A stretch of DNA of 64,000 nt from NCBI RefSeq assembly GCF_900141795.1, contig NZ_FSRE01000001.1:186001-250000 (forward strand). Reading direction: 5' to 3'. The position numbers and the translations under genes are program-made. The DNA is from Sulfurivirga caldicuralii. Lineage in GTDB: Bacteria > Pseudomonadota > Gammaproteobacteria > Thiomicrospirales > Thiomicrospiraceae. Below, piece after piece: positions 16,574-28,203 of the stretch (its first letter is position 1; the number at the start of each line of letters is the position of its first letter). The notes beneath the pieces are model-generated. The model saw only the letters and a program-made list of their open reading frames with translations. It did no database searches and was not told the DNA's origin.

Positions 16574-17533
16574 ATGCCTTATAGAGCCGACCATCTCGTC
16601 CGCCACGCCACCCTGCGTCAGCTGCAGGTATTTGTCGCCATCGCCCGCGAGGGCAGTTTTTCCAAGGCCGCCGAGCGGCTTCACCTGACCCAGCCCACTG
16701 TTTCCATGCAGGTGAAGAAACTGTCGGAAGCGGTGGGGGAGCCGCTGTTCGAGCAGATTGGCCGCAAGGTTTATCTCACCGAGGTGGGGCGCATCATGCT
16801 CGAGGCGGCGGAGTCCATCCTGGATCAGCTGGCGCTGGCGGAAGAAAGGGTGAATGAACTGCGCGGGGTCGCAGGTGGTACGGTGCGTCTGTCTGTAGTG
16901 TCCACGGCGCAGTATTTCGTGCCGGAGGTGATTCACGCCTTTCTGGAAGAGTATCCGGATGTGAATGTAGTCATGGAGGTGGGCAACCGTGAAACGCTGC
17001 TGGCGCGCATTCAGCAGAACGTGGATGACTTCTACATTCTTGGCCAGCCGCCGGAAGGTCTTCGCGTGGAAAGCCATCTGCTGGCCAACAACCCGCTGGC
17101 TGTGGTGGCGCACCGGGATAATCCGCTGGCGCAGACAAAAAAGCGAATCAGGCTGGAAGCACTGGCGGAAGCCCCCTTTCTGATGCGGGAGAAGGGGTCG
17201 GGTATTCGCAAGCAGGTGGAGCATGTTTTCCGTGAGCATGGCTTTGAGCCCAATGTGAAGATGGTGTTGGGGGGCAACGAGGCCATTCGTCTCGGCTTGC
17301 GGGAAAACCTAGGTGTTACCGTGGCCTCGCTGCCGACCCTGATCGACGAGATCGAGTCCGGCGAAATCGTGGTGCTGGATGTGCAGGGTTTTCCGGTCAT
17401 GCGTCACTGGTATCTGGCGTGGCCGGAAGGCAAGGCCATTTCTTTGGCTAGCCGCCTGCTGATCGAACGCATGCAGCTGGCCGCCGCCGGTCTGGATGAA
17501 CAGATCGGGCGTCTGCTGAAGCATAGTGGATAA
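16574..17533 (+). CDS. cbbR: LysR-type regulator of RuBisCO genes
   Basis: A 319-residue LysR-family protein. The N-terminal winged helix-turn-helix (about 13-72) contains RQLQVFVAIAREGSFSKAA and LTQPTVSMQVKKLSEAVGE. The effector-binding domain follows (GGTVRLSVVSTAQYFVPEV near 100). Sequence style and its position directly upstream of cbbM identify it as CbbR, which senses Calvin-cycle metabolites or NADPH in studied relatives. It is unusual in pointing the same way as its neighbour operon rather than divergently. Likely targets are the shared motifs before cbbM, dabB and cbbL. Confidence 0.88.
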   Translation: MPYRADHLVRHATLRQLQVFVAIAREGSFSKAAERLHLTQPTVSMQVKKLSEAVGEPLFEQIGRKVYLTEVGRIMLEAAESILDQLALAEERVNELRGVAGGTVRLSVVSTAQYFVPEVIHAFLEEYPDVNVVMEVGNRETLLARIQQNVDDFYILGQPPEGLRVESHLLANNPLAVVAHRDNPLAQTKKRIRLEALAEAPFLMREKGSGIRKQVEHVFREHGFEPNVKMVLGGNEAIRLGLRENLGVTVASLPTLIDEIESGEIVVLDVQGFPVMRHWYLAWPEGKAISLASRLLIERMQLAAAGLDEQIGRLLKHSG

Positions 17534-17551
17534 AAAATGCTTTTCAGAAAA

Positions 17552-17589
17552 ATATTAGATGATCATGAAATATATAGAGGATCGCCTTA
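17552..17589 (+). promoter_or_regulatory. Candidate CbbR binding region upstream of cbbM
   Basis: Two overlapping elements are seen. A 22-base dyad at 17552-17573 pairs ATATT-AGATGA with TCATGA-AATAT, with two mismatched positions. TATAG-N8-CTTA lies at 17573-17589, starting 39 bases before the -35 box. The same TATAG-N8-CT pattern occurs at the dabB and cbbL promoters. The position, about -74 to -58 from the predicted start, is where LysR regulators bind. Confidence 0.5.
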
Positions 17590-17611
17590 AACACGCATAA
17601 TTTATATTGAT

Positions 17612-17640
17612 TTGTCATGGTCGGAGCCGCCCCATAGAAT
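17612..17640 (+). promoter_or_regulatory. Candidate cbbM promoter
   Basis: TTGTCA and TAGAAT are separated by exactly 17 bases. Transcription would start near 17647, giving a leader of about 54 bases. The -10 box lies inside the left arm of the 61-base inverted repeat. Confidence 0.6.
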
Positions 17641-17691
17641 AGTTTTTGCACACTCGGGTGATGTCCCGAAGATCTGTAAAAACACTATGGG
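17631..17691 (+). repeat. 61-bp nested inverted repeat in the cbbM promoter/leader
   Basis: Outer arms CCCATAG / CTATGGG (17631-17637 / 17685-17691), middle arms GTTTTTGC / GTAAAAAC (17642-17649 / 17676-17683, one mismatch) and inner arms TCGGG / CCCGA (17654-17658 / 17665-17669) share one centre. The right outer arm overlaps the ribosome-binding site GGGAG just before the cbbM ATG. Confidence 0.7.
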
Positions 17692-17700
17692 AGTTCCAAC

Positions 17701-19101
17701 ATGGATCAGTCCAATCGCTATGCCAATCTGGATCTGAAAGAAGAAGATCTCATTAACGGCGGTCGCCACATGCTGGTGGCCTACCGCATGAAGCCGGCAC
17801 CCGGCTACGGCTTCCTGGAAGTGGCTGCGCACATCGCTGCCGAGTCTTCCACTGGTACCAACGTAGAGGTTTCCACTACCGACGACTTTACCCGTGGTGT
17901 GGATGCGCTGGTTTACGAAATCGACGAAACCGCGTTCGGTGATCAGGGTGGTCTGCTCAAGATCGCTTACCCGGTTGAGCTGTTCGACCACAACCTGATC
18001 GACGACAAGCACCCTGTGTCCCACATGTGGTCGCTGGTGCTGGGCAACAACCAGGGTATGGGCGACCACCTGGGTCTGCGCATGCTGGACTTCTACCTGC
18101 CGGAAGTGATGGTCAGAAACTTCGACGGTCCTGCCACCAACATTGAAGACATGTGGCGCGTACTGGGTCGTCCCACCAAGGATGGCGGTTACATCGCCGG
18201 TACCATCATCAAGCCGAAGCTGGGTCTGCGTCCCGAGCCGTTCGCAAAAGCCTGTTACGACTTCTGGCTGGGCGGTACCTTCATCAAGAACGACGAGCCG
18301 CAAGCCAACCAGACCTTCGCGCCCATGAAGAAGGTTATCCCTCTGGTTGCGGAAGCCATGGATCGTGCTCAGCAGGAGACTGGCGAGGCCAAGCTGTTCT
18401 CTGCCAACATCACTGCCGACTTCTTCGGCGAAATGATTGCTCGTGGCGAATACATCCTGAACGAATTCGCCAAGTACGGCAACGAAGACCATGTGGCCTT
18501 CCTGGTGGACGGTTTCGTAACCGGTCCAGCAGGTGTTGCGACAGCACGTCACTACTTCCCGAAAACCTTCCTGCACTTTCACCGGGCGGGTCACGGCGCG
18601 CTGACCTCCTACAAGAGCCCCATGGGCATGGATCCGCTGTGCTACATGAAGCTGGCTCGCCTGCAGGGTGCGTCCGGTATTCATACTGGCACCATGGGCT
18701 ACGGCAAGATGGAAGGTCACTCAGACGAGCGCGTACTGGCCTACATGCTGGAGCGTGACGAGTGTCAGGGTCCGTACTTCTATCAGAAGTGGTACGGCAT
18801 GAAGGCGACCACTCCGATCATCTCCGGCGGCATGAACGCACTGCGTCTGATCGGCTTCTTCGAGAACCTGGGTCACGCCAACGTGATCAACACCTGTGGT
18901 GGTGGCTCTTTCGGTCACATCGATGGTCCGGCCGCTGGCGGCAAGTCCCTCGATCAGGCCTACCAGTGCTGGAAGGAAGGCGCCGATCCGATCGAATTCG
19001 CGAAAGAACACAAGGAGTTCGCGCGCGCATTCGAATCCTTCCCGTGGGATGCCGACAAGCTGTTCCCGGGCTGGCGCGAAAAACTGGGCGTTCACAAGTA
19101 A
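17701..19101 (+). CDS. cbbM: Form II ribulose bisphosphate carboxylase
   Basis: Fixes CO2 on ribulose bisphosphate; form II works as a dimer of large subunits without small subunits, with low CO2/O2 specificity. The 466-residue length is normal. Catalytic motifs are present: [12 protein letters not shown] (active-site Lys near 166), [11 protein letters not shown] (carbamylated Lys near 192), HRAGHGA (His near 297), and the loop 6 region [11 protein letters not shown]. It is outside the carboxysome operon and accompanied by its own activase genes cbbQ and cbbO. It is likely used when CO2 is plentiful. Confidence 0.98.
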
Positions 19102-19244: not shown

Positions 19245-20060
19245 ATGTCATTTGATATCAATCAGTACAAGATCGAATCCGAGCCGTTCTATCAGGCGCA
19301 GGGTAATGAAGTCGAGCGCTACCAGGCGGCCTATGCCGCTCGCCTGCCGGTAATGGTGAAAGGCCCCACCGGCTGCGGTAAATCACGTTTTGTGGAACAC
19401 ATGGCGTGGAAGCTGGGCAAGCCGCTGATCACCGTCTCCTGTAACGAAGACATTACCGCCGCCGACCTGGTGGGCCGTTTTCTTTTGGACGCCAGTGGCA
19501 CCCGCTGGGTGGACGGTCCGCTGACGCTGGCGGCGCGTTACGGTGCCATTTGCTATCTGGACGAGATTGTGGAAGCCCGTCAGGACACCATGGTGGTGAT
19601 CCATGCCCTGACCGACCATCGCCGCGAGCTGCCGCTGGACAAGAAGGGTGAAGTGGTCAAGGCGCACCCGGACTTTCAGCTGGTGATCTCATACAACCCG
19701 GGCTACCAGAGCGTGATGAAAGACCTGAAACAGTCCACCAAGCAGCGCTTTACCGCCATGGAGTTTGACTACCCCACGCCGGAGCTGGAAACCCAGGTGG
19801 TGGCAAAGGAAACCGGCATTGACGAACACACTGCCGCCAAGCTGGTGGAGGTGGCCAATGCGGCGCGCAAGCTCAAGGGTCACGGTCTGGACGAAGGCAT
19901 TTCCACCCGTCTGGTGGTCTATGCCGGTATTCTGATCAAGCAGGGCATGCCCGCGGCTGAAGCGGCGGAAATGGCAATGGTGACACCCATTACCGACGAC
20001 GCTGAGGTGCGCGAAAGCCTGCTGCATACGATTGAACTGGTATTGGGTGAAGCAGCCTGA
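19245..20060 (+). CDS. cbbQ: RuBisCO activase AAA+ subunit CbbQ
   Basis: A 271-residue MoxR-family AAA+ ATPase that, with CbbO, removes inhibitory sugar phosphates from RuBisCO. Walker A is GPTGCGKS (residues 40-47). Walker B is in AICYLDEIVEA, near residue 105. A sensor 1 region reads FQLVISYNPGY. The family also includes NorQ and NirQ; the RuBisCO role follows from its place directly after cbbM. A ribosome-binding site (GCAGGAGA) precedes the ATG. There are 11 bases before cbbO, so the pair is co-translated. Confidence 0.95.
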   Translation: MSFDINQYKIESEPFYQAQGNEVERYQAAYAARLPVMVKGPTGCGKSRFVEHMAWKLGKPLITVSCNEDITAADLVGRFLLDASGTRWVDGPLTLAARYGAICYLDEIVEARQDTMVVIHALTDHRRELPLDKKGEVVKAHPDFQLVISYNPGYQSVMKDLKQSTKQRFTAMEFDYPTPELETQVVAKETGIDEHTAAKLVEVANAARKLKGHGLDEGISTRLVVYAGILIKQGMPAAEAAEMAMVTPITDDAEVRESLLHTIELVLGEAA

Positions 20061-20071
20061 GCGAGCGAATC

Positions 20072-22318
20072 ATGACCGATTATCACGCGCAATTTACCTG
20101 CGGTTTTCAGTCGGCGAAGGATCTGTTTGCGGATGCCCTGAATGCCATGCAGGGGGTCTGTCCGGATACAGTCTGCATCGAAGCCTTTATCGATCGGGCC
20201 AATTTCCTCTGCAAGATCGGTCTGGGCGCCGAGCCGGTGCTGACCTTCATGGATGTGATGCCGGAGGTGGTGAAACGCTATGGCGCCGAGACCATCGAGC
20301 GGGTGGCGCGCTTTGCCTACGAAATGGGCCGCAGTCCCAATAAAAAGGCGGTGGTGCCGTTTCTGCAGTCGCTGCTGGCGCTGGCGCACCGGGTGGAAAG
20401 CCCCGATGGGCTCGAACGTTATCTGGAGATGTTGGCCGATTTCATCAAGCGCACCGAAATCGTGGTGCATGGCCATCAGTCCCTCTACCCCAGCAAGGGG
20501 CTGGTGCCGTTGCTGGAAAACATGCCGCTGCTGCTCAGGCAGTTGAGTCTGGAAGGGGTGCGCGCGTTTATGGACTATGGGGTGCGCGCCTACAACCACA
20601 ACCCGGATCACCAGCAGGAATACTTTGAGCTGAAGACGCCGGACAGCCTGGCCATGCTGCGCCGTCAGCGCGAGGGCACGCTGTTTGTGGACGTGGAGCG
20701 GCAACTGGGCGTGCTGGCTGCCGGCCTGTGGGACTGCGAACTGCCGTTGCGCACCTTTACCGTGGATCCGGAGCTGCCCAGTTATCAGGCACCCTTTTTT
20801 GACCGGGATAATGAGGTCATTGGCATGCCCGATTTTGTGGCCCCTGCGCGCGGATTGAGCGGGCTGCAGATCTATCGGGCACAGATCGCCCACCTGATGG
20901 CCCACTTCAAATGGAGCCAGCCCATGATCGGCGACAACATGTCGCCGCCGGCGCGCTTCTTTACTGAGGTATTCGAAGACTGTCGCGTGGACCGGCTGGC
21001 CATGCAGCGTTTTCCCGGTCTGGAGCGCTATTTTCTGGCGCTGCATCCGGTGCCGCCGCTGGGCGCCTGCAACGAGGCGGAGCAATCCTGTCTGCGTTAT
21101 CGTGCCGCCCGTCTCTCCCGAGCGCTGATGGATCCCGATTTCGACCCGGAAGACGAGATCATTGAGGTCTTTCGTGACCGCTTCAATGCGCTGATGGTCG
21201 AGAAGGGCGAGGCGCTGACGCTGGCAGACATGAAGGAACTGGGCACGGCCTATTATGTGAAGACGCGGGCGCAGACCGATGACAAGGGCGGTGACATGTT
21301 CTATGAGGACACCGAAGTCCTCTATCGGGATGACAACCGCTACCTGTGGATCTACATCGACGACAGTGGTGAGGAAGATATCTTCGATCACGCCCCGGAT
21401 AACGAGGATGAAACGCCGCAGGGGCTGCCGCCGCGCTATTACGACGAGTGGGACTATTCCATGAACGACTATCGTCCGGAATGGGTCACCCTCTACGAGC
21501 GTCTGCACCCCCAGGAAAGTCCGGCCAAGATTGACAACATGCTGGCGCGCCACGAACTGCTGATCAAGCAGCTTAAGAAGATGGTGGAGGCCATCAAGCC
21601 GCAGGATAAGCGCCGCATTCGCTACCAGGAAGAAGGGGCCGAACTGGATCTGGATATCGCCATCCGCGCCATGATCGACATCAAGGCGGGGCTCAATCCC
21701 GATCCGCGCATTCTTTATGACACCGTGACCGACAATCGTTCCATGGCGGTGCTGCTGCTGGTGGATCTGTCCCAGTCGCTGAATAACACCCTGCCGGGCA
21801 CCGGCCGCACGCTGCTGGAGCTGGCGGAAGAGGCGCTGGCGATTATGAGCTACACGGTGGAACTGCTGGGGGATCGCTTCGCCATCGCTGGCTTCCATTC
21901 TGACACCCGTCATCGCGTGCTTTACCACCACATCAAGGGTTTCACCGAGCATTGGGACGATACGGTCAAGGGCCGCCTTTCGGCCCTGGAAGCGGCCTTT
22001 TCCACCCGCATGGGCGCGGCGATTCGTCACGCCACACACTACCTGAGTCATCAGCCGGCGGAGAAAAAGCTGCTCTTGGTGCTCACCGACGGGGAGCCGG
22101 CGGACATCGATGTGAAGGACCCGGAATACCTGATCGAAGATGCGCACATGGCGGTGGCGGAAGCCCATCAGCAGGGCATCTTTAGTCATTGCGTCAATAT
22201 AGATCCCAATGGGGACGACTACGTTAAGCGCATCTTTGGCGGGCATTACACCATCATCGATCATGTAGAGCGTCTGCCGGAGCGGTTGCCACAGGTGTTT
22301 CTGAATCTGACCAGGTAA
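20072..22318 (+). CDS. cbbO: RuBisCO activase adaptor CbbO with VWA domain
   Basis: The 748-residue partner of CbbQ that recognises RuBisCO. A large helical N-terminal region is followed by an acidic segment near 425-450 (DDSGEEDIFDHAPDNEDE) and a C-terminal von Willebrand A domain. The domain has an intact metal-ion-dependent adhesion site: DLSQS near residue 567 and TDGEP near 672. A metal-bound VWA domain docks CbbO on RuBisCO in studied systems. The length fits CbbO proteins. No second cbbQO pair lies beside cbbLS, so one pair may serve both enzymes. Confidence 0.93.
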   Translation: MTDYHAQFTCGFQSAKDLFADALNAMQGVCPDTVCIEAFIDRANFLCKIGLGAEPVLTFMDVMPEVVKRYGAETIERVARFAYEMGRSPNKKAVVPFLQSLLALAHRVESPDGLERYLEMLADFIKRTEIVVHGHQSLYPSKGLVPLLENMPLLLRQLSLEGVRAFMDYGVRAYNHNPDHQQEYFELKTPDSLAMLRRQREGTLFVDVERQLGVLAAGLWDCELPLRTFTVDPELPSYQAPFFDRDNEVIGMPDFVAPARGLSGLQIYRAQIAHLMAHFKWSQPMIGDNMSPPARFFTEVFEDCRVDRLAMQRFPGLERYFLALHPVPPLGACNEAEQSCLRYRAARLSRALMDPDFDPEDEIIEVFRDRFNALMVEKGEALTLADMKELGTAYYVKTRAQTDDKGGDMFYEDTEVLYRDDNRYLWIYIDDSGEEDIFDHAPDNEDETPQGLPPRYYDEWDYSMNDYRPEWVTLYERLHPQESPAKIDNMLARHELLIKQLKKMVEAIKPQDKRRIRYQEEGAELDLDIAIRAMIDIKAGLNPDPRILYDTVTDNRSMAVLLLVDLSQSLNNTLPGTGRTLLELAEEALAIMSYTVELLGDRFAIAGFHSDTRHRVLYHHIKGFTEHWDDTVKGRLSALEAAFSTRMGAAIRHATHYLSHQPAEKKLLLVLTDGEPADIDVKDPEYLIEDAHMAVAEAHQQGIFSHCVNIDPNGDDYVKRIFGGHYTIIDHVERLPERLPQVFLNLTR

Positions 22319-22399
22319 TGTCGTGCACCCACTGGGGTGCGCTCTTCCAATGCCATGTGAACGGGCGGGCAATTGCTGCGCAATGCGGTCGGCTTGCCT

Positions 22400-22456
22400 G
22401 CAGTGGAATGAGCGTGAGGGCACGGGTTGTCACGCCCTGTGCCGAACCGCCACTGC
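22400..22456 (+). other. Large nested RNA fold after cbbO
   Basis: GCAGTGG (22400-22406) pairs with CCACTGC (22450-22456), enclosing GGCACGGG / CCCTGTGCC (22419-22426 / 22435-22443). A smaller GCACCC / GGGTGC hairpin lies at 22325-22340. There is no T run, so this could be a 3'-end stabiliser or a Rho-type stop. The 309-base gap 22319-22627 contains this, the inverted repeat at 22524 and the dabB promoter, and no gene. Confidence 0.45.
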
Positions 22457-22523
22457 ACCCGTCGCGCTTTTGCAGCGGATCTGCAGGAGGGGTATAGACA
22501 CTAATCTTGGGATTCACCTCACT

Positions 22524-22575
22524 CTATAGACGATAATCTATTTTTTTCATAACAAAAAAATATTCTCGTCTATAG
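22524..22575 (+). promoter_or_regulatory. 52-bp inverted repeat with TATAG-N8-CTAT motif upstream of dabB
   Basis: CTATAGACGA (22524-22533) and TCGTCTATAG (22566-22575) are exact complements. Inside, the left run of seven T faces the right run of seven A with a small bulge, giving a near-continuous stem of about 20 pairs. The left arm holds TATAG-N8-CTAT (22525-22541), which is the motif also found at cbbL and, less perfectly, at cbbM. It is likely a regulator site, possibly two facing CbbR half sites. Confidence 0.6.
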
Positions 22576-22591
22576 ATGCGGGGTATATCAT
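22563..22591 (+). promoter_or_regulatory. Candidate dabB promoter, weak -35
   Basis: TTCTCG and TATCAT are separated by 17 bases. The -10 box is good and the -35 box poor, as expected for an activator-dependent promoter. The shared motif begins 38 bases before the -35 box, almost the same distance as at cbbM and cbbL (39). Confidence 0.45.
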
Positions 22592-22627
22592 TGACGCCGA
22601 CATCAGCATAGTTAGGAGAGGTGAACC

Positions 22628-24178
22628 ATGTTGGCGCAATTGAACACCCTGATCGAGTGGCTGATTCCGGCAAGCCTGATAGCCGCTTCGATAGTAAACG
22701 ACCAGAAAGTGCGCTGGGATGTGGCCATTGGCGTTGCCGCTGCTGGACTGGTCTTTTCCGTGCTGCTGCTCGTGGAACATGTGCTGGGGGTTCTCCCGGC
22801 CGGAACGGGCTGGCTGTTTCCGGCCACGGCCAGCTTTGTCATGCTGGTGCTGGTCATGTTCATCGGCCTGATCAATCTGTATTTTTCCCGTTCGTATATG
22901 GCGTCCACGCGCTTCGAGGAGCTGCGTTATGTGCGCTGGGTGCTGGTGGTGCTGGCATCGGTGGTGCTCGTGGTCATTTCGAATCACATGCTGCTGCTGA
23001 TGGTGGGCTGGATCGGCATCAGTGTGTCGCTGAATCGGCTGCTGCTGTTCTACCCCAATCGTCCGCGGGCGGTGCTGGCGGCGCATAAGAAGTTTCTCTT
23101 TTCCCGGTTTGCCGAAGTGTTGCTTTTTGTGGGCTTTGTGCTGCTTCACGCCACCTATGACACCTGGCTCATCAGCGATGTGCTCGCATACTGGCAGATG
23201 ACGGGCGAGACCCCGGCAGCGGTAGCGTGGGCGGTGGTGCTGATCGCGCTGGCCGGACTGATCAAGTGTGCGCAGATGCCGTTTCACGGCTGGCTCATTC
23301 AGGTGGTGGAGGCACCCACGCCCGTTTCTACGCTGCTGCATGCCGGCATTGTGAACCTGGGCGGTTATCTGATGATCGTGTTCGCCCCGCTGCTCATGGC
23401 GGTGGAGGCCGCCCAGTGGGTGCTGGTGGTTGTGGGCGGTCTGACTGCCGTGCTGGCGGGCCTGATCATGATGACCCGTGCATCGGTCAAGGTGCGTCTT
23501 GCCTGGTCCACGCTAGCGCAGATGGGCCTGCTGCTGGTGGAGTGCGGTCTGGGTCTGTTTGAGCTGGCCATGCTTCACCTGGTGGCGCACTCGCTTTACA
23601 AGGCGTATTCCTTCTTCAATTCCGGCTCGGAGGTCACGCAAAGCCTGACCCGCTGGATCGTCCCGAGCGTGCTACCCACCTGGCGTGACTGGCTGGTTGC
23701 GCTGGCGTTCTCGCTGATCGTCGTGCTGGTGATCAAGGAGGTCGTCGATCCAGAGGGGGTACTTGCGCCCTGGCTGCTGGCGGCGTCGTCTCTGGCCATA
23801 TTCGTGGCTGAACGCCATGGTCGCCCTGTGGATGTGCCATTGTTGCAGCGTCTCGGCGTTGGTGTGGTCATTATCCTGGCCTATGTGGTGCAGAAGCACA
23901 TTTTCGATCTGGTGTCGCCAGATGGGGCGCTCACCTTGGGCGCTGGCACGGACATGTTCGTAAGCCTGCTCGTGGTGCTTTATCTGGCGGGCTACTGGGT
24001 GATCCTCTACGGCAGCAATTCCACGCAGATCAGCCGGATTCGCCGCGCGCTGTATGCAGGCTTCTATCTGGATGAGTGGTCTACGCGGCTGAGCCTGCGT
24101 ATCTACCCGGTAACGCTGCCGACCGAACACAATCCCAGGGGGCTTCGTCTCGGCAAGGAAGAGTTTGCCAACGAGTAA
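22628..24178 (+). CDS. dabB: DAB inorganic-carbon transporter, membrane subunit DabB
   Basis: A 516-residue polytopic membrane protein of the proton-antiporter (NuoL/MrpA-like) family. With DabA it forms an energy-coupled CO2 hydration and uptake pump. The hallmark HGWLIQVVEAPTPVSTLLHAG segment at about residues 220-240 and SLYKAYSFFNSGSEV near 325 match ion-conducting helices of complex I antiporter subunits. About a dozen hydrophobic helices are visible. The gene stands alone from any nuo cluster and is followed after 30 bases by dabA, the diagnostic pairing. Confidence 0.93.
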   Translation: MLAQLNTLIEWLIPASLIAASIVNDQKVRWDVAIGVAAAGLVFSVLLLVEHVLGVLPAGTGWLFPATASFVMLVLVMFIGLINLYFSRSYMASTRFEELRYVRWVLVVLASVVLVVISNHMLLLMVGWIGISVSLNRLLLFYPNRPRAVLAAHKKFLFSRFAEVLLFVGFVLLHATYDTWLISDVLAYWQMTGETPAAVAWAVVLIALAGLIKCAQMPFHGWLIQVVEAPTPVSTLLHAGIVNLGGYLMIVFAPLLMAVEAAQWVLVVVGGLTAVLAGLIMMTRASVKVRLAWSTLAQMGLLLVECGLGLFELAMLHLVAHSLYKAYSFFNSGSEVTQSLTRWIVPSVLPTWRDWLVALAFSLIVVLVIKEVVDPEGVLAPWLLAASSLAIFVAERHGRPVDVPLLQRLGVGVVIILAYVVQKHIFDLVSPDGALTLGAGTDMFVSLLVVLYLAGYWVILYGSNSTQISRIRRALYAGFYLDEWSTRLSLRIYPVTLPTEHNPRGLRLGKEEFANE

Positions 24179-24208
24179 GTGTTTCAGTGACTATAGGGAG
24201 AGGGAATT

Positions 24209-26662
24209 ATGACGCGCAATGATCTATTGAAGGAAACCGGTCTCGAGGCAGTGGACAAGGCGTGCGCGCTGATCGCGCCCACCTGGCCGCTGGACGAGTT
24301 GGTGGCGGTCAACCCGTGGTGGGAAATGCGTGACCTGCCGTTTACGGAAGTTTCCGCCCGCATTTCGGCGCTTCGCAGGGCGAGTTGTCTGCCAGACAGA
24401 TTCTATTTCAAGCGGTTGTGGCAGGATGTCATTCGGGCGGAGCACCTTTCGCGGGCGTGCGAGGAAAAGGGGCGCGAGGACCGGGTGGAAGAGCTGGTGC
24501 GCTTTCTCACCGAGGATAACGAGCGCGCCCATTGGCACAATATCAGCGACCTGGTGGACAGCGGTCGGGATCTTGAGCGCCGTATGGCCTGGCGCATGGA
24601 AATCCACCATCAGATCAGCCAGTTCTGCGCCGACTTTTTCCGCGTCAAGGAGGTGTCGGGCAGTTATGACGAAGCCTACAGCGGGCTGTATGCCGAGTGG
24701 CTGGCGACGACCCGTCAGGACATGGGATTGGAGATTCTCATGGCCGAGGATGGCCTGACAGCGCAGTTCGATCGTCTTCCGCAAAGTGCCGATGCGCTCA
24801 TTGCCGAGGCGATTGCCGCCTTTGGCGTAGAGGATTCCCGAGCGCTCGAAACCTATGCCCATGCGCTTCTGCTGGACATGAACGGCTGGGCCTCCTGGGT
24901 CGCCTATCTGCGCTGGCAGGATCGGTTGCACGAGCATGACAACGGGCTGATGCGTCAGTTCCTTGCCATTCGCATGGCATGGGAGCTGGTGCTGTGGCGC
25001 CATGTGCAGGAGACCAATGCCGATCTGTTTGCGGACATCAAGGTGCACTGGTTCCGCCAGCTCAACAGTATCGAAGCGCTGTACCGGGCTCACCAGCGCA
25101 GTCAGGCCAAGCTGTGGATCTGGCTGCGGGCCGCGGAGCTGGCCTATCAGGATCGAGCCATCGCCATCCTGCAGGCAGGCAGCACGCAAAAGTCTTCCGA
25201 GCGGCCCCTGCTGCAGGCGGCCTTCTGCATCGATGTGCGCTCAGAGGTGATTCGTCGCAATCTGGAGCAGCAGGACCCCCGCATACAAACGCTGGGCATG
25301 GGCGGGTTTTTCGGCATGCCGGTGGCCTACCAGCCCAGCAAGCTGAATCGGCTGCGTCCGCAGCTGCCCGTTCTCCTGCGCGAACAGATGGTGGTGCGTC
25401 CGCAGGTGCCCGAAGAGCGGCTGGATGGCGTATTGCTCAAAAAGGCCAGAAAGGCGCGCTGGATCGAATGGACTATCGCGCCACCAGCCATGTTTACCAT
25501 GGTTGAGGCGGTCGGTGTGCAGTATCTGTACAAGATGATCCGCAACAGTTTCTTCCCGGAGAAGTGCGCCAATCCCATTGATCAGCTACCGGTCGAGGAT
25601 GCGTTCGAGCTGTTGCATGTGGATGGGCGCCCCCTCGCGCTGGATGAAAAGGTGAGTCTGGCCAAGGGGGCGCTGGAAGTCATGGGGCTGAACGATGGCG
25701 TGTTCGCGCCGACGGTCATGATCGTGGGGCACGGCAGCAGCAGCTGCAACAATCCTCATGCCTCCTCGCTGGACTGCGGCGCCTGCGGCGGTCAGACCGG
25801 CGAGATCAACGCACGCCTGGTCGCGTGGCTGCTCAATCAGTCCGATGTGCGCGAGGGACTCGCTGCGGCGGGGATGCCGATTCCGCCGGATACCCGCTTT
25901 ATCGGCGCACTCCACAATACGACCACGGATGAGTTCACCTTTTACGGGGATGTTCCCGATCAGGTGCGCGGCTGGTTCGAGGGCGCATCCGATCTGACCC
26001 GCAGGGCGCGGGCGCTGACGCTTGGTTATGAGCAGATTCAGTCGTCCCAGTCGTTGCGCGACACGTTCGTGCACCGCTCTCGAGACTGGTCGCAGGTGCG
26101 GCCCGAGTGGGGTCTGGCTGGCAATGCCGCCTTTATCGCGGCGCCCCGCTGGCGCACGCGGGGGCTGGATCTGCAGGGTCGTGCTTTCCTGCACGATTAT
26201 GACCATGAGCAGGACCTCGAGCGCGCCGTGATCACCAATATCATGACGGCGCCCATGGTGGTGGCTAGCTGGATCAACCTTCAGTATTACGCCTCCACCT
26301 GCGACAACGATTTTTACGGCAGTGGCAACAAGGTGCTGCATAATGTGGTCGATGGGGATGTAGGCGTGTTTGAAGGAAACGGCGGTGACCTGCGCATCGG
26401 CCTGTCCATGCAGTCGCTGCATGACGGTCAGCGCTGGATCCACGAGCCCCTGCGGCTGAGTGTTTTCATTGATGCGCCGCAGGAGGCGATCGCCGCGGTG
26501 GTGGCCGAGCATGCGGATGTGCGCCATCTCATTGACAATGAGTGGATCTACTGCTTCCGCTGGGCACGAACCGGAGAAGTGGAGCGGTACTATCAGGGCA
26601 AGTGGCTGCCCTGGCAGCCGCTTGAGACGGCATCGGATGTTCAACAGATAGTCAATGCATGA
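24209..26662 (+). CDS. dabA: DAB inorganic-carbon transporter, zinc subunit DabA (DUF2309)
   Basis: The 817-residue cytoplasmic subunit of DAB, distantly related to beta-carbonic anhydrases; it converts CO2 to bicarbonate one way, driven through DabB. The proposed zinc set is present: Cys340 and Asp342 in AAFCIDVRSE, His508 in VGHGSSS, and Cys523 in LDCGACGG. The 15-residue spacing between the last two equals that known for Halothiobacillus DabA. An acidic, Trp-rich N-terminus (LVAVNPWWEM) is typical of the family. Its place between the form II and form I RuBisCO units ties it to the CO2-concentrating mechanism. Confidence 0.95.
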   Translation: MTRNDLLKETGLEAVDKACALIAPTWPLDELVAVNPWWEMRDLPFTEVSARISALRRASCLPDRFYFKRLWQDVIRAEHLSRACEEKGREDRVEELVRFLTEDNERAHWHNISDLVDSGRDLERRMAWRMEIHHQISQFCADFFRVKEVSGSYDEAYSGLYAEWLATTRQDMGLEILMAEDGLTAQFDRLPQSADALIAEAIAAFGVEDSRALETYAHALLLDMNGWASWVAYLRWQDRLHEHDNGLMRQFLAIRMAWELVLWRHVQETNADLFADIKVHWFRQLNSIEALYRAHQRSQAKLWIWLRAAELAYQDRAIAILQAGSTQKSSERPLLQAAFCIDVRSEVIRRNLEQQDPRIQTLGMGGFFGMPVAYQPSKLNRLRPQLPVLLREQMVVRPQVPEERLDGVLLKKARKARWIEWTIAPPAMFTMVEAVGVQYLYKMIRNSFFPEKCANPIDQLPVEDAFELLHVDGRPLALDEKVSLAKGALEVMGLNDGVFAPTVMIVGHGSSSCNNPHASSLDCGACGGQTGEINARLVAWLLNQSDVREGLAAAGMPIPPDTRFIGALHNTTTDEFTFYGDVPDQVRGWFEGASDLTRRARALTLGYEQIQSSQSLRDTFVHRSRDWSQVRPEWGLAGNAAFIAAPRWRTRGLDLQGRAFLHDYDHEQDLERAVITNIMTAPMVVASWINLQYYASTCDNDFYGSGNKVLHNVVDGDVGVFEGNGGDLRIGLSMQSLHDGQRWIHEPLRLSVFIDAPQEAIAAVVAEHADVRHLIDNEWIYCFRWARTGEVERYYQGKWLPWQPLETASDVQQIVNA

Positions 26663-26677
26663 TGTTACATTTTTGTG

Positions 26678-26697
26678 ATATAGATGTTTGGCTATAT
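26678..26697 (+). promoter_or_regulatory. Candidate CbbR site upstream of cbbL
   Basis: ATATAG-N8-CTATAT is a perfect 20-base dyad. Its TATAG-N8-CTAT core (from 26679) begins 39 bases before the cbbL -35 box, the same offset as at cbbM. It lies only 16 bases after the dabA stop. Confidence 0.6.
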
Positions 26698-26717
26698 TAA
26701 GTATGCGACATTCCGAT

Positions 26718-26746
26718 TTGTAATTGGATGGTCAAGTCTCTAATAT
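26718..26746 (+). promoter_or_regulatory. Candidate cbbL promoter
   Basis: TTGTAA and TAATAT are separated by 17 bases. Predicted start is near 26753, leaving a leader of about 35 bases with AAGGAG before the ATG. This would drive the whole cbbLS-cso operon. Confidence 0.65.
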
Positions 26747-26787
26747 TGACTACGAATCTTTAACTCCACAAACCAAGGAGAGCATAA

Positions 26788-28203
26788 ATGGCAAGCAAAG
26801 CATTTGAAGCTGGCGTAAAGGATTACGCCCTGACATACTGGACGCCCGACTACACTCCGCTCGACACGGATCTTCTGGCGTGTTTCAAGGTGGTGCCTCA
26901 GGAGGGTGTATCCCGTGAAGAGGCGGCTGCAGCGGTTGCTGCCGAGTCTTCAACCGGTACCTGGACCACGGTGTGGACCGACCTGTTGACCGATCTCGAG
27001 TTCTACAAGGGGCGTGCCTATCGTATCGAAGATGTTCCCGGTGATAAGAACGCATTCTATGCATTCATCGCCTATCCGCTGGATCTGTTCGAAGAGGGTT
27101 CCGTCGTTAACGTGCTGACCTCTCTGGTTGGTAATGTGTTCGGCTTTAAGGCGATCCGCTCTCTGCGTCTGGAAGACATTCGCTTCCCGGTGGCTTATGT
27201 CAAAACCTGTGGCGGTCCGCCGAATGGTATCCAGGTTGAGCGCGACAAGCTGAACAAGTATGGCCGTCCGATGCTGGGCTGTACTATTAAGCCCAAGCTG
27301 GGCCTGTCTGCCAAGAACTACGGCCGTGTTGTGTATGAGTGTCTGCGCGGCGGCCTTGATCTGACCAAGGATGATGAAAATATCAACTCTCAGGTATTCC
27401 AGCGCTGGCAGCACCGCTTCGAGTTCGTGGCTGAGGCGGTTGACAAGGCAACCCGTGAAACCGGCGAGCAGAAGGGTCACTACCTGAATGTGACCGCCGG
27501 CACCGTGGACGAAATGATCAAGCGCGCCGAGTTCGCCAAGGAGCTGGGTCAGCCGATCATCATGCACGACTTCCTGACCGCCGGTTTCACCGCAAACACC
27601 ACCCTGGCGGAATGGTGTCGCGACAATGGCATGCTGCTGCACATTCACCGTGCCATGCACGCCGTAATCGACCGCAACCCGCTGCACGGTATCCACTTCC
27701 GAGTGCTGGCCAAGTGTCTGCGCCTCTCCGGTGGTGACCACCTGCATACCGGTACCGTTGTCGGCAAGTTGGAAGGTGACCGCGCTGCGACACTTGGTTT
27801 CGTTGATCAGATTCGCGAAGCCTATGTTCCGGAAGATCGCTCACGCGGCGTGTTCTTCGATCAGGACTGGGCGTCCATGCCTGGCGTGATGCCGGTTGCG
27901 TCCGGCGGTATCCATGTCTGGCACATGCCGGCACTGGTCAGCATCTTCGGTGACGATTCCGTGCTGCAGTTCGGTGGCGGTACACACGGTCACCCATGGG
28001 GATCCGCTGCGGGTGCGGCGGCGAACCGCGTTGCACTCGAGGCCTGTGTCAAGGCCCGCAACGAAGGTCGCGATCTGGAGCGCGAAGGTGGGGATATCCT
28101 GCGCGAAGCGGCGCGCCACAGCAAGGAGCTGGCGGTTGCTCTCGAAACCTGGAAGGAAATCAAGTTCGAGTTCGATACCGTTGACAAACTGGATACCCAG
28201 TAA
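26788..28203 (+). CDS. cbbL: Form IA RuBisCO large subunit
   Basis: The large subunit of the L8S8 carboxysomal RuBisCO, 471 residues. Active-site motifs are [15 protein letters not shown] (Lys near 172), [15 protein letters not shown] (carbamylated Lys near 198), HRAMHAV (His near 291) and loop 6 in [12 protein letters not shown]. The N-terminus ([20 protein letters not shown]) is the form IA type. The gene heads the cso operon, as in other alpha-carboxysome bacteria. Confidence 0.98.

Follow-up and report, generated by a model that had tools for sequence, protein, structure and literature searches.

The window, by which we mean the entire 64-kb stretch of Sulfurivirga DNA that was analyzed, contains a cbbM gene encoding form II RuBisCO. 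The gene is located 3' of a co-directional LysR-type, CbbR-like regulator gene, and 167 bp separate the two (Table 1). Between cbbM and the form I gene cbbL (window positions 19245–28203) are, judging by position, probable cbbQ, cbbO, and an inorganic-carbon uptake pair.

The spacer between lysR and cbbM carries a single sigma-70-like promoter match, TTGTCA-17-TAGAAT (10/12 positions; 0.7 such matches expected by chance). Relatives show a pyrimidine-purine step 8–9 bases past the -10 box, and transcription is expected to begin near G17648 because both this step and the promoter spacing point to that base. A 24-nt block that ends one base before the end of the -35 box, with coordinates good to about one base, is identical in the other Sulfurivirga examined while the leader has diverged; it is probably a CbbR activator site. 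A 13-nt overlapping palindrome further upstream is, from its position, a plausible candidate for a LysR recognition site. No intrinsic terminator (a G+C-rich stem followed by a T run) was found on either strand at 17500–17800.

Table 1. Features of the lysR-cbbM region, in window coordinates
Feature	Position	Strand	Basis and remarks
LysR-type regulator, CbbR-like	16574..17533	+	ORF; best NCBIfam match CbbR NF045990 (E 2e-68), below the curated cut-off
13-nt overlapping palindrome, ATATTAGATGATC/GATCATGAAATAT	17552..17573	.	Sequence; candidate LysR recognition site
24-nt block, ACGCATAATTTATATTGATTTGTC	17594..17617	+	Alignment; probable CbbR activator site
-35 box, TTGTCA	17612..17617	+	Promoter search
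Outer left arm, CCCATAG	17631-17637	+	Sequence; absent from the mRNA of the predicted promoter
-10 box, TAGAAT	17635..17640	+	17 bp from the -35 box
Middle left arm, GTTTTTGCA	17642-17650	+	Sequence; mostly 5' of the predicted start
Predicted transcription start, G	17648	+	First purine after a pyrimidine, 8th base past the -10 box
Inner hairpin, TCGGG-TGATGT-CCCGA	17654-17669	+	Arms 17654-17658 and 17665-17669
Middle right arm, TGTAAAAAC	17675-17683	+	Sequence; alignment with the other Sulfurivirga
Outer right arm, CTATGGG	17685-17691	+	Sequence; overlaps the ribosome-binding site
Shine-Dalgarno sequence, GGGAG	17689..17693	+	7 nt before the ATG
cbbM, form II RuBisCO	17701..19101	+	NCBIfam NF010002 (E 1e-247), above the cut-off

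A nested palindrome over the promoter and ribosome-binding site

The initial annotation described a 61-bp nested palindrome at 17631–17691 that covers the -10 box, the start region, and the Shine-Dalgarno sequence and stops nine bases short of the ATG. On checking, its three concentric inverted repeats are correct base for base, as are the coordinates, and the gap before the ATG at 17701 is 17692–17700. As a sequence feature the palindrome is real, and it is single-copy in the 1.67-Mb genome. The outer arms pair at 7/7 positions, and the middle arms form eight Watson-Crick pairs and one G-U pair. An A-rich linker, AAAAACA, at the middle right arm is common to the window and the other Sulfurivirga in the alignment.

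The first three bases of the -10 box lie inside the outer left arm. Because of this overlap, the normal mRNA should contain no outer left arm and just a small part of the middle left arm; of the three repeats, only the inner hairpin would be intact in an mRNA from the predicted start.

Folded as RNA, positions 17629–17693 reach -25 kcal/mol, compared with -11.6 ± 2.7 kcal/mol for 200 dinucleotide shuffles of the same segment (z -4.97; 0/200 as good). Among GC-matched 65-nt segments, a background drawn from the 64-kb window only, 25 of 4362 (0.6%) are as stable as the palindrome (z -2.8). As it falls within this top 0.6%, we regard its stability as unusual, not extreme.

Predicted access to the ribosome-binding site depends on the 5' end

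For RNAs with differing 5' ends, we calculated how much energy is needed to free the Shine-Dalgarno sequence. The predicted cost is 9–12 kcal/mol for 5' ends at 17610–17630, about 6 kcal/mol at 17632, and 2–4 kcal/mol from 17634 onward; a locked site is predicted only for RNAs that begin at or before about 17632. When the 40 nt 5' were replaced by dinucleotide shuffles, the opening cost was 3.4 ± 1.5 kcal/mol vs 10.7 kcal/mol with the real upstream sequence, and none of the 150 shuffles was as high.

The initial annotation had set out a fork, in which the outer arms act as DNA if transcription starts near 17647 and the ribosome-binding site is hidden if it starts further upstream. The opening costs bear out this division. 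The upstream branch has since gained support from the short distance to the co-directional lysR, the lack of a detectable terminator between the genes, and the prediction of the same lock in a second Sulfurivirga, described below.

A similar arrangement is known from phage T4. In gene e (lysozyme) and I-TevI, long transcripts from upstream form a hairpin that masks the ribosome-binding site, and a promoter in the 5' strand of that hairpin yields shorter, translated RNAs that lack the strand (PMC3014915, PMC2988022). The predicted cbbM promoter likewise lies within the 5' strand of the predicted hairpin over the ribosome-binding site. The upstream-initiated RNA is predicted to fold into a hairpin that includes this site, and RNA from the predicted start would be without the hairpin 5' strand. 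Unlike the T4 genes, cbbM is a chromosomal CO2-fixation gene with a sigma-70-like, CbbR-type promoter, and the lock is a prediction from sequence.

Comparison with a second Sulfurivirga and other cbbM loci

The cbbM gene of the other Sulfurivirga is represented by loci L002 (genome G001) and L037, which share one cbbM upstream sequence, and the comparison within the genus rests on two cbbM leaders in all. In this genome, too, a CbbR-like gene is co-directional with and upstream of cbbM, and no terminator was found between the two. Both leaders consist of a small hairpin, then AAAAACA, then the ribosome-binding site. The outer arms of the second leader (TCCTTCTC/GAGAAGGA) are a perfect 8-bp match, and both the arm sequence and the position of the left arm differ from those in the window. 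The probability of the outer-arm matches arising by chance is 0.017 and 0.007 in the two Sulfurivirga. In the second leader, the predicted switch falls at the equivalent functional position: opening costs 4–9 kcal/mol when the RNA begins no further downstream than the -10 box and about 2–3.5 kcal/mol from just past it, with 1/100 upstream shuffles as high.

As a check, the initial annotation had proposed comparing relatives for compensatory changes. Complementarity is kept in both Sulfurivirga; the exact palindrome is not conserved. The alignment places the left arm differently relative to the -10 box in the two leaders, and since the left arms occupy non-homologous positions the pairing is not column-wise covariation.

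We extended the shuffled-upstream control to further cbbM loci, using transcription start points that we assigned ourselves. Where LysR is co-directional, the upstream sequence adds a mean of 2.4 kcal/mol (mean z +0.54), vs 0.5 kcal/mol (mean z -0.12) in the 36 loci with a divergent LysR. A shuffle rank of 0.06 or lower was obtained for 8/33 co-directional and 1/36 divergent loci, a modest excess in the former group and none in the latter. The median rank in the co-directional set is 0.41, and the effect is not general. The predicted lock is strong in Sulfurivirga and occurs in some other lineages, though not in most. An anti-Shine-Dalgarno sequence just past the -10 box was also considered as a rule for all related cbbM leaders and was rejected as such by the same test: the signal is marked in Sulfurivirga, can be seen in L004, L014, L020, L021, L044, and L118, and is missing from most loci.

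A two-helix leader RNA precedes cbbM in relatives

In relatives of the Hydrogenovibrio, Thiomicrorhabdus, and Thiomicrospira type, the cbbM leader is a different and clearly structured RNA of about 80–130 nt. In order, its elements are UUUCGGG, a first helix (P1), a linker rich in A, a second helix (P2), and UUGAGGUAAG, followed by the ATG; UUUCGGG and GAGGUAAG are conserved. In 18 sequences, two-sided changes are found in 15/16 pairs and 88% of cells pair, a value that falls to 42–47% when the partner is slid by one base. With 31 distinct sequences, in an alignment fitted to the covariance model (R1), every one of the 16 pairs shows two-sided changes. A pairing of UUUCGGG with a CCC following helix P2 was dropped because L003 and L016 keep the box without the CCC.

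Of 63 genomes searched in the order, 27 contain a match to model R1, with a single copy in each; scores in relatives are 19–84 bits. The leader match adjoins the cbbM match of the same genome at every listed position. Matches are located at 1403–1503 in L015, 1399–1503 in L047, and 2896–2990 in L010, in addition to 29 others. The best score in the window is 7.2 bits at 17499–17539, outside the leader, and the model has no match in L002. In all motif-carrying related loci whose flank includes LysR, this gene is co-directional with cbbM, and no match was found in L011, L116, or L120, the loci of the family in which a different LysR is divergent. The leader motif and a co-directional CbbR appear to be linked.

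Among the 4227 Rfam models, none matched at gathering score in window positions 17400–17900 or in 15 relatives, and permissive-threshold scans returned just weak matches below that score. A tree of the LysR proteins places Sulfurivirga as sister to all motif carriers; Sulfurivirga may have lost this leader, or its lineage may have branched off before the two-helix RNA arose.

The evidence for this covarying and so far undescribed cbbM leader RNA in the family is firmer than that for the lock. From its position, the likeliest role of this RNA is translational or stability control of cbbM. The Sulfurivirga leaders resemble it in lying between a CbbR-type promoter and cbbM and in having a hairpin followed by an A-rich linker, but they are only 52–53 nt long and do not match the model. 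The proposal that the palindrome is a control element specific to form II RuBisCO holds as to position; it is, however, a single case in the genome, and the conserved, covarying leader of the relatives differs from it.

Another conserved short leader is found in Sideroxydans and Gallionella, whose cbbM leaders have in common, in about the last 40 nt before the gene, an almost unvarying stretch similar to GTTGCAAGAACATTTAAACGACAAGAGGAGAAAACA (L052, L054, L056, L061, L064–L066, L070, and L071).

Possible functions of the palindrome

Computation shows the inverted repeats, the match to a promoter, a steep change in predicted site opening with the RNA 5' end, and the same behavior in the second Sulfurivirga. 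We propose that the palindrome is a start-site-dependent translational lock of the T4-lysozyme type that silences read-through transcripts from lysR; read-through itself, the exact start, and the effect on translation are inferred. A polymerase coming in from lysR would transcribe both outer arms, giving an RNA that would adopt the nested hairpin of 61 nt and close the cbbM ribosome-binding site. Polymerase starting at the CbbR-type promoter within the left half would instead produce a leader of 53 nt, in which the outer left arm is missing and the middle left arm is mostly missing. Only the small inner hairpin would remain, and the site would be largely accessible. Form II RuBisCO would then be produced only upon activation of its own promoter. 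We consider this the most likely mechanism, although we hold it tentatively and somewhat short of probable. The T4 logic needs frequent read-through, and a weakly expressed regulator gene gives little. In addition, cbbM of a metagenome fragment resembling Thiomicrospira crunogena was judged to be transcribed alone (2017 study, PMC5506194).

Two serious rivals to the lock have to be weighed. The palindrome may be a chance product, in which a short stable hairpin coincides with accidental complementarity between the promoter and the purine-rich ribosome-binding site. The share of equally stable GC-matched segments in the window, a p of about 0.01–0.02 for each arm match alone, and the non-conserved position of the arms are all compatible with such an accident. 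Against chance speak the same prediction in both Sulfurivirga genomes despite the divergence of their leaders and the z score of -4.97 relative to the segment's own shuffles. We consider chance rather unlikely. The other rival takes the functional unit to be the normal mRNA leader (5'-terminal hairpin, A-rich linker, and ribosome-binding site), with the outer arms incidental. Such a leader could be a truncated or diverged equivalent of the two-helix RNA, and could determine how stable the mRNA is or react to some factor. The covarying leader found at exactly the same place in relatives, the shared layout of the two Sulfurivirga leaders, and the sister position of Sulfurivirga in the LysR tree speak for this explanation. 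However, neither Sulfurivirga fits the model, the window's best hit being low-scoring and at the wrong position, and the mRNA leader in the window is predicted to be no more stable than its shuffles (z 0.14). We judge this explanation unlikely.

The arms could also act as DNA, as repressor or CbbR sites across the promoter and start. They flank the start, and by coordinate arithmetic their center spacings of 33 and 54 bp are close to 3 and 5 helical turns. LysR2 and LysR1 have also been found to bind the lysR2-cbbM intergenic DNA of the T. crunogena-like fragment (PMC5506194). A repeated operator, as a reading of the DNA branch of the initial annotation, is nevertheless not supported. The middle-arm pair is single-copy in the 1.67-Mb genome and missing from the other Sulfurivirga, and 17675–17691 has no second site in the window. 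Nor are the arms conserved in the other Sulfurivirga, while the block by the -35 box, where CbbR is expected, is identical. A LysR/CbbR operator would be a repeated, conserved binding site, and we consider an operator role of the palindrome very improbable.

A comparable element has been described by Boehnke and Perner in the same T. crunogena-like fragment, where the lysR2-cbbM spacer contains a large inverted repeat, IR8 (PMC5506194). An insertion into the left arm of IR8 lowered RuBisCO activity; the same insertion separated the -35 from the -10 box, and the authors suggested that the repeat guides LysR binding (PMC5506194). Going by its description, IR8 is like the palindrome in lying between the same pair of genes, in being a large inverted repeat, and in having its left arm at the promoter. 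The readings differ, with a guide for LysR binding proposed there and a translational lock here.

Implications for the control of form II RuBisCO

Inorganic carbon affects the cbbM transcript in H. crunogenus and T. pelophila (PMC12628692). A literature search for cbbM in connection with riboswitches found nothing. To our knowledge, control of bacterial RuBisCO genes has been described almost wholly as CbbR-driven transcription. A broader reading combines the lock with the leader RNA of the family: cbbM would be gated by transcript start, its leader structure shutting translation on lysR read-through RNA, and the family-wide leader, with two covarying helices, at most one copy per genome, and a tie to a co-directional CbbR, would be a dedicated RNA regulator that might sense RuBisCO itself or a signal of CO2 fixation. 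That both parts hold together seems to us quite unlikely. If true, this would be RNA-level control of bacterial RuBisCO of a kind absent from Rfam and from the literature searched. Both the lock and the leader RNA are open to direct testing in cultivated Hydrogenovibrio and Thiomicrorhabdus. The lock would couple translation to promoter choice. If real, it and the leader RNA would mean that whether form I or form II RuBisCO is used is decided in part at the level of RNA.
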